Source of the DNA: Ceratorhiza oryzae-sativae | Taxonomy: Eukaryota > Basidiomycota > Agaricomycetes > Cantharellales > Ceratobasidiaceae | Reading direction: 5' to 3' | Length of the DNA: 64,000 nt | NCBI GenBank assembly: GCA_030998015.1 | Contig: JARWMV010000245.1 | Span: forward strand, 1-64,000 | Shown: piece by piece, positions 55,168 to 56,733 of the stretch | How the letters are laid out: every line of letters begins with the position of its first letter | Position numbering within the stretch: position 1 is the stretch's first letter | Notes under the pieces: model-generated | The model's database searches: none | What the model saw: the letters and a program-made list of their open reading frames with translations, nothing else | What the model was told of the DNA's origin: nothing | Position numbers and translations under genes: made by a program

Positions 55168-56733
55168 CTACTTTTTCAATCCAACAATCTCACCATCGAC
55201 AATCTCCGACTCGCGGAAGATCCTCAGCGCTTCATGAGCAGCCTTGATTCCACTCGCCATCATCGCACCAAACTACCAGTCACTTGTCAACACCTCCCTC
55301 GCTAGAAACCCCGAAACGAAAGCTCACAGTGGGTCCCATCCGGTTCGCACCATCGTGCTCCGAGAGCTCCATGCCTAATGCCGCACTTGGTCAAAGCCGG
55401 TATATCATACCTGAACGGAACACCCACCGGTCATGATCAAACCAGGATGAACCTCGCGTGTACCATTGACAATCGCGGGCTCGCTCCGGTTCATATCCAA
55501 GCACCTAGTCCACCCCACAAGTCAGCACGCGGATGGCCTGCCCCCAAGGGGCAGGGAGACACTCCTTTCGCGCGCATAAACACGATCAAGTTCAACGGTA
55601 TACTCTCAGCCACGCTTTTTCGCCGCCCTAGCCCATACATTCCCCCAAACGGCAGATGCATGAGAGGACGGCGCAGCGGGCACCCGTGGTCTCCGGCCCC
55701 ATCCATAATCTGTACGTTACCGTCTTGACCTCGACCTCATGCGCACGAAAAAAGAAGTGAGTCGATCTCGAGAAGCAGTGCCCTACCGCATATCCCCAAG
55801 CTCCTTGACCAATCCGGTGCTGACCAATCGCTTGGCGCAAAACGCGCCCATCGGTCCATCATGGCCCGTCGCGCTAATGATGACCGGGGCTGTGATCACT
55901 TGAGGGTCCATGCATGATTGAGTCTGGTCAAAGTCGTATCATCCCAGTTGGCCAAGAGCAAAAAAAAGCAAACGCATACATGATGGTTTAGCGCGACGAG
56001 CGTATAGTTGGTTACCACACCGGCAACACGTCCGTCGGGCTTGACGATCAAATCCTCGACCGCTGTCGCGTTGAACATGCGTACGTTTGGGAATGCGAGG
56101 ACTTTGGAGAGAACAGTCGAAGTAAACATGGCGGCGTGCTGCAAGACCAGCCTAAGAGCCCGCCCGGAACCATCAGCAGACGACTCACGCGAACGACGAC
56201 ATACGGGCCCTCGTCCTCGAACGGAACACCAAGCTCGGCCAGGAACCGATCAGCAGGCTTGCGCACGACCTGATTTCACATTGATCAGCATCGCCCGCTG
56301 ACAGCGTTCCCGATCCGACGACATACCATCGCGGTCATGAGTTGACCGCCGAGCCACGCACCGCCACCAGGTGCCACACCCGCCTCGATGATCGTGATCT
56401 TCAAATTGGGTGCGTTCTTCGCGAGGTGATAAGCACATGACAGGCCAGCGGACCCGGCTCCGACAATGACCACATCCGAGACGGCTCGGTCGTACATGTC
56501 TTCAAAGTAGCTAGCCATTTCGACCAGAGTCAGTATAGAATGAAATCGAAGCCAGCAGGGACGAACCGCTTGGTCATTGCACGCGAGACCTGAGACTCCT
56601 TGATGGGAGCAAACTTGTAATCGCCATTGTAATCCTCCTTGGTCTCGTAGTGATTATCATTGGCCAAGGGCTTCTTGGAGATCACAGGCGAGTCCTCGAA
56701 AATAGAAGCACAAGTAGCAACGGGAGGAGCCAT
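55168..56733 (-). CDS. THI4: Thiazole synthase THI4 (suicide-type)
   Basis: Makes the thiazole half of thiamin from NAD and glycine, with sulfur taken from its own Cys. Exons in order: MAPPVATCASIFEDSPVI...TKR, then YFEDMYDRAVSDVVIVGAGS and AGLSCAYHLAKNAPNLKITI, a FAD/NAD-type GxGxxG; GGAWLGGQLMTAM; VVRKPADRFLAELGVPFEDE; HAAMFTSTVLSKVLAFPNVR; TQSCMDPQVITAPVIISATG, with the sulfur-donor Cys in SCMDP; HDGPMGAFCAKRLVSTGLVK; MNRSEPAIVNGTREVHPGLI; MELSEHDGANRMGPT; FGAMMASGIKAAHEALRIF and the end VGLKK. Seven introns keep frame. The fifth (55505-55786, 282 nt) is far longer than the others and houses the TPP riboswitch. A TATATAAA box at 56798-56805 lies about 65 bp upstream of the start. Confidence 0.93.
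55539..55557 (-). other. 8-bp hairpin between aptamer and 3' splice site
   Basis: On the minus strand CCTGCCCC-TTG-GGGGCAGG forms a perfect 8-bp stem. It lies just after the aptamer and before a CTGAC branch-point-like sequence (about 55526) and the 3' splice site at 55505. Confidence 0.6.
55560..55655 (-). promoter_or_regulatory. TPP riboswitch aptamer in a coding-region intron of THI4
   Basis: On the minus strand the intron reads GGGGG at about 55642, a variable stem, CTGAGA at 55604-55609, then ATACCGTTGAACTTGATC, ATGC, GCGAAAGGAGTG (55560-55570). These are in the order and spacing of the conserved TPP aptamer elements: the pyrimidine-sensor CUGAGA, GAAC-UUGAUC, and GCG-AAGGA. Fungal THI4 genes are known to be controlled by such riboswitches through splicing. 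The position here, between exons encoding GDMR and LDMNRSE, is within the coding sequence. I read the conserved elements only; the P2 and P3 stem pairings were not fully verified. Confidence 0.8.

Follow-up and report, generated by a model that had tools for sequence, protein, structure and literature searches.

A candidate TPP riboswitch in a coding-sequence intron of THI4 in Ceratorhiza oryzae-sativae

A TPP riboswitch probably shuts off THI4 in Ceratorhiza oryzae-sativae by controlling the splicing of intron 5, which interrupts the coding sequence. The gene lies in the window analyzed here, a stretch of 64,000 nucleotides at the start of contig JARWMV010000245.1. An initial annotation had reported a TPP aptamer in this intron and had interpreted it as a coding-intron riboswitch of THI4; the observation is confirmed and the interpretation is supported by the sequence analyses described below. 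The THI5 gene and an amino acid permease gene of this genome likewise have such a device in a coding intron.

The THI4 gene and its fifth intron

THI4 was spliced by hand into eight exons, and the resulting product is a full-length Thi4 protein (PF01946, 348 bits, E 2.2e-104) with 92% identity to a Rhizoctonia solani protein and with 88% and 87% identity to two Ceratobasidium sp. AG-Ba proteins. The junction across intron 5 (GDMR/CLDMN) is intact in all four Ceratobasidiaceae proteins (P0001, P0004, P0005, and P0006) among the 10 proteins fetched. A second THI4 copy was not found in the 48.8-Mb genome, where the seven protein matches listed are exons of one gene. The other six introns of THI4 are 50 to 57 nt long, and intron 5 is about five times longer. 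The gene and the splicing signals of intron 5 are as follows.

55168..56733, minus strand: coding part of THI4, 8 exons, 318 aa (spliced by hand, PF01946, identity to the R. solani protein)
56733-56567, 56510-56327, 56269-56189, 56138-55980, minus strand: exons 1-4 (splicing by hand)
55923-55787, 55504-55428, 55374-55328, 55272-55168, minus strand: exons 5-8 (splicing by hand)
55505..55786, minus strand: intron 5, 282 nt, carrier of the putative riboswitch
55781..55786, minus strand: S1, productive 5′ splice site GUAGGG, with an in-frame UAG inside it at 55785-55783
55537..55556, minus strand: G+C-rich hairpin between the aptamer and the branch site, overlapping the final two P1 bases (from folds)
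55521..55528, minus strand: likely branch site GUGCUGAC (from sequence)
55507-55505, minus strand: putative 3′ splice site UAG of intron 5 (from sequence)

The reading frame of exon 5 continues as ATG CGG TAG, which places a stop at intron position +2, overlapping the donor S1 (CG/GUAG). Any failure of S1 therefore truncates Thi4 at residue 243 of 318, with Cys201 retained. This cysteine, located in the motif TQSCMDP and in a region covered by alignments to solved Thi4 chains, is presumably the sulfur donor of suicidal Thi4. The initial annotation had held that the aptamer splits the coding region upstream of the exon with LDMNRSEPAIVNGT and that mis-splicing would truncate the enzyme after the cysteine of TQSCMDP. 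The sequence fits the former statement, and the position of Cys201 ahead of an end after residue 243 bears out the latter for a splicing change that is itself predicted.

The TPP aptamer of intron 5

The coordinates that had been proposed for the aptamer-bearing element, 55505-55786, are exactly those of intron 5, and the motifs CUGAGA, GAACUUGAUC, and GCGAAAGGA are found there in the order that had been claimed. The Rfam TPP family, RF00059, matches the minus strand at 55639-55545 with 35.9 bits (E 1.8e-4 in a 5-kb search with all Rfam families; E 4.3e-4 over the whole 48.8-Mb genome). A match above the RF00059 threshold had been set beforehand as a test, and this was not passed, as the gathering score is 54.3 bits; that score is a database cut-off and not a feature of the RNA. 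When the 64-kb window was searched with all Rfam families, none exceeded its gathering score. The aptamer and its motifs are placed as follows.

55555..55694 (intron +93..+232), minus strand: TPP aptamer, 140 nt (RF00059 over the 3′ half, match to THI5, fold, and pairing)
55604..55609, minus strand: CUGAGA motif, the pyrimidine-ring site of the family (sequence)
55593-55584, minus strand: GAACUUGAUC (sequence)
55563..55571, minus strand: GCGAAAGGA, the GCG pyrophosphate site and the 3′ strand of P4 (sequence)

The stems of the aptamer follow one another as P1 (GGAGAC/GUCUCC), P2 (ACGG/CCGU), a long P3, P4 (CUU/AAG), and P5 (CGUG/CGCG), with standard pairs throughout (6 in P1, 4 in P2, 3 in P4, and 4 in P5). 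Both the CUGAGA and the GCG motifs of RF00059 are present. Two other elements are each one base off the motifs of the fungal survey, namely GAGAG in THI4 versus GAGAU, and UUUAU versus the L5 sequence UAAU.

Comparison with the THI5 copy of the same genome delimits the element further. The THI5 intron has GAGACCACGGGTG[C/T]CCGC in common with the THI4 intron (17/18 bases), and the 3′ halves of the two aptamers are identical at 32 of 37 bases. Because the THI5 copy locates the P1/P2 arm at 55694, the 5′ half of the Rfam alignment is misplaced: the Rfam match starts at 55639, downstream of the true 5′ arm, and about 70 nt of P3 intervene. This length of P3 is the probable cause of both the low Rfam score and the misplaced 5′ half, and P3 variability affects the detection of fungal riboswitches according to the excerpted text of PMC11683625. 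P1, P2, P4, and P5 all pair in both genes. One pair of P5 is altered on both sides, from G-C to A-U, and the outer pairs of P1 differ with pairing kept. Outside the aptamer arms, no homology between the THI4 and THI5 introns was detected, as shuffled sequences aligned equally well in 711/1000 (upstream), 746/1000 (P3), and 122/1000 (downstream) cases. Recent copying of the whole intron is therefore weakened as an explanation and, since the arms are common to both genes while P3 and the flanks are unlike, the pattern indicates selective conservation.

Related aptamers elsewhere in the genome

The genome was searched with RF00059 at E<=10, with 49 of the 2465 candidates scored, so that the hit count is a lower bound. 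At least three places were found, in THI4, THI5/NMT1, and an amino acid permease gene, and all three are within coding introns according to gene models made by hand. The gene at the 39.5-bit match encodes NMT1/THI5 (PF09084, E 2e-70), and the gene at the 53.9-bit match encodes an AA_permease_2 protein (PF13520, E 3.4e-15); both aptamers, like that of THI4, score under the gathering value of 54.3 bits. Because the genome-wide matches fall in fitting genes, they outweigh the sub-threshold score of the THI4 aptamer. Surveys link amino acid permeases to TPP riboswitches in Basidiomycota, as far as their excerpted texts go. A scan with a core pattern, with one mismatch allowed, recovered THI4 and THI5 only and missed the permease copy, for which the pattern is too strict.

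In the hand models, the THI5/NMT1 aptamer (L005, G000:C235:1296203-1295905, minus strand) occupies a 299-nt coding intron that follows the codons for CCCFCSILYI and precedes a 9-nt micro-exon. The AA_permease_2 aptamer (L004, G000:C236:112772-113055, plus strand, 53.9 bits) is in the intron after the first coding exon. The first in-frame stop is reached at +2 in THI4, +45 in THI5, and +43 in the permease gene, and further GU sites are present between the first stop and the aptamer in all three introns.

Complementarity between the aptamer and a stretch beside a candidate second donor

Upstream of the aptamer, intron 5 of THI4 includes a stretch complementary to the aptamer's own 3′ half, followed by a second GU site.

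55723..55770 (intron +17..+64), minus strand: anti-aptamer stretch, predicted to pair with aptamer positions +196..+232, 34/48 bases paired
55714..55720, minus strand: S2, candidate alternative 5′ splice site GUAACGU (+67), putative donor

The anti-aptamer duplex has a predicted energy of -40.8 kcal/mol. None of 2000 shuffles was as strong (mean -25.2, SD 3.4), nor was any of the 2644 other 96-nt tiles from both strands of the window (best, -36.7), a set that leaves out tiles touching about 55450-55850. With the tiles of intron 5 still included, 3/2664 were at least as good, and the corresponding figure for the best 20-nt window was 1/666. The core of the helix consists of 19 contiguous pairs, G-U allowed, between 55754-55736 and 55580-55562, and the helix closes off intron positions +65..+195. 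The anti-aptamer stretch ends two bases short of S2. The window has a single copy of ACGGTAACGT, against an expectation of 0.08, and the permease intron carries this sequence too, at +53..+62. The form GURNGY fits five of the six other THI4 donors, and both S2 (GUAACG) and S1 (GUAGGG) depart from it.

Anti-aptamer pairing as a device common to the three genes was rejected, because the counterpart pairing in THI5 is weak (191/2000 shuffles as good, 291/2664 tiles, and 20/666 tiles for the best 20-nt window) and that in the permease intron is not above chance level (998/2000 shuffles, 915/2664 tiles, and 161/666 for the best 20-nt window). The helix is thus confined to THI4.

Predicted folds with flanking sequence were compared in the free state and with the aptamer enforced. 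In THI4, the predicted share of unpaired bases at S2 is 0.21 in the free fold and 0.45 in the aptamer fold; S1 has the value 0.67 in either fold, and the branch site is paired in each (0.0 unpaired). In THI5, the predicted unpaired share rises from 0.34 to 0.62 at the GU at +55 and from 0.28 to 0.70 at the GU at +63, and falls from 0.20 to 0.03 at S1. This modeled pattern fits masking of a second donor at low TPP, as the excerpted text of PMC5882874 describes for NMT1. The graph distance from S1 to the branch site is 35.0 in the free fold and 36.8 in the aptamer fold of THI4; the THI5 values are 10.7 and 18.9. With flanks, the free folds are more stable than the aptamer folds by 18 kcal/mol (THI4) and 13 kcal/mol (THI5). 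TPP would therefore have to act during transcription, which is the weakest link of the mechanism proposed below.

Proposed mechanism and alternative explanations

We infer that the aptamer binds TPP and that S2 serves as a donor when TPP is high. When TPP is scarce, positions +17..+64 would pair with the 3′ strand of the aptamer's P4/P5/P1 and mask S2 at +67; S1 would then be joined to the 3′ splice site, yielding the complete Thi4 protein. At high TPP, the aptamer would fold around its ligand and S2 would be freed. The RNA would be spliced from S2 or the intron kept, and in both cases translation would run into the immediate UAG that overlaps S1. The outcome in TPP would be a 243-residue dead protein and, probably, decay of the mRNA.

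The same riboswitch could also have plain intron retention or premature decay as its off-state, with S2 unused. Under this reading, which is possible but on balance doubtful, TPP folding would make S1 or the 3′ splice region inaccessible, and the UAG at +2 alone would kill the message. The stop indeed works without a second donor, and S1 may be easily lost given its departure from GURNGY, although S2 departs as well. The location of the anti-aptamer stretch, which stops just ahead of a GUAACGU found again in the permease intron, argues for a role of S2, as does the location of the stop between both GU sites in THI4 and the permease gene. Alternatively, a long-range helix formed at low TPP might shorten the intron and promote S1, as in NCU01977 of Neurospora crassa, with no masking of S2. 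The THI4 helix does close off +65..+195, and in THI5 the pairing starts directly after S1, which is nearer to the branch site in the free fold (graph distance 10.7) than in the aptamer fold (18.9). However, the same distance hardly differs between the two THI4 folds, and the alpha element in the excerpted text of PMC5882874 pairs with the 3′ segment of P1; looping of this kind is unlikely to be the mechanism in THI4.

Two further explanations would deny the element its function. That the aptamer has decayed and lost TPP binding is consistent with the low Rfam score and with the deviations of GAGAG and UUUAU from the survey motifs, but it is quite improbable with P1, P2, P4, and P5 intact and with the 3′ half (32/37) and 5′ arm (17/18) maintained in THI5 alongside an unlike P3 and unlike flanks, a sign of selective conservation. 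That the motif arose by chance in a long intron, an idea favored by a score under the gathering threshold, is hardly credible beside an E value of 4.3e-4 in 48.8 Mb and three matches in fitting genes. Control of intron 5 splicing through masking of S2 thus stands as our preferred reading. A broader proposal, which we put forward tentatively and regard as rather unlikely in its entirety, is that a thiamin regulon of Ceratobasidiaceae (THI4, THI5, and the permease gene) is governed by TPP riboswitches in coding introns whose long P3 stems keep them below standard cut-offs, that the THI4 expression platform consists of a stretch antisense to the 3′ half of the aptamer and placed next to a second donor, and that one of the THI4 and THI5 aptamers derives from the other by transfer between unrelated genes.

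Other features of the window

Several features of the window were recorded in passing, with a domain scan covering 10 of its 114 open reading frames (ORFs). A tandem array at 6396-7534 is composed of 10.6 copies of a 108-bp unit with 93% matches, so the long ORFs at these positions are suspect. Two ORFs on the minus strand (11022-12239 and 14923-15843) carry PP-binding/thioesterase and condensation/AMP-binding domains and probably belong to a nonribosomal peptide synthetase-like gene. The ORF at 34387-35307 on the minus strand matches aspartyl proteases and, below the cut-off, an integrase core, and is probably a retrotransposon fragment. Downstream of THI4, adjoining minus-strand ORFs with SAM and SH3 domains (52455-53312 and 53348-54613) may possibly form one signaling-adaptor gene. 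A match to HOXA11-AS1_3 at 54902-54804 (28.1 of 50 bits) is weak and was taken as chance. One scan of viral contigs found no DNA of relatives.

Comparison with known riboswitches

Surveys describe riboswitch control of thiamin synthesis in Basidiomycota as limited or fragmented in the portions of their text available. According to a survey of fungi of medical relevance published in 2024, control of thiamin synthesis by TPP riboswitches is limited in Basidiomycota, with THI4 riboswitches in Rhodotorula mucilaginosa only and none in NMT1 (PMC11683625, as excerpted); Rhizoctonia may be outside its species list. The present case is one Rhizoctonia-like genome with both THI4 and THI5 riboswitches under the Rfam cut-off, and surveys of Basidiomycota may therefore undercount. 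No account of this THI4 element was found among the publications listed by the literature searches, and one may exist in figures or supplementary tables. What is new is a THI4 instance with an unusual expression platform; the kind of switch is already known. Mid-gene riboswitches are reported from algae (PMC4260697, excerpt), and the excerpted text of PMC5997356 reports riboswitches in the coding introns of transporter genes and, for some yeasts, in introns of THI4.

The initial annotation had assigned most known fungal THI4 riboswitches to the 5′ leader, consistent with the account of Type I in PMC5882874 (Mukherjee et al. 2018), as excerpted. The Type I riboswitches of N. crassa NMT1 and THI4 share with the present element the control of splicing and the target genes, and in NMT1 P4/P5 likewise pairs with sequence adjacent to a donor; theirs, however, are in 5′-UTR introns and act through uORFs (excerpts of PMC5882874 and PMC5997356). 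The THI4 riboswitch of Chlamydomonas also involves TPP-controlled splicing of a THI4 intron (PMC9277225, excerpt). N. crassa NCU01977 and Candida DUR31 resemble the present case in the coding intron and premature stop and, for NCU01977, in long-range pairing (PMC5997356, excerpt), but they differ in the transporter gene, in an intron that is longer by the Type II definition, and in an alpha element drawn from the P1 strand. The DUR31 intron of C. parapsilosis has been studied in a reporter in laboratory S. cerevisiae (PMC5997356, excerpt). Type II calls for an intron of 650 to 900 nt in a urea-type transporter (PMC5882874, excerpt), unlike the 282 nt of THI4 intron 5.

The position of the element is unusual for THI4 yet within known kinds, because the excerpted text of PMC5882874 defines Type III in internal introns of 200 to 400 nt whose two donors flank a stop, a type that it says is without experimental observation. 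Intron 5 corresponds to that definition as an internal coding intron of 282 nt with an in-frame stop before the aptamer (+93..+232) and a 3′ AG just before the next exon. The stop at +2 is certain, and the second donor at +67 is a non-consensus candidate. THI4 differs from the defined type in that its stop falls within S1 and S2 follows a long anti-aptamer stretch. The best reading is TPP-driven mis-splicing that would turn THI4 off in the manner of this predicted fungal class, and intron 5 offers a compact candidate for testing the Type III mechanism.
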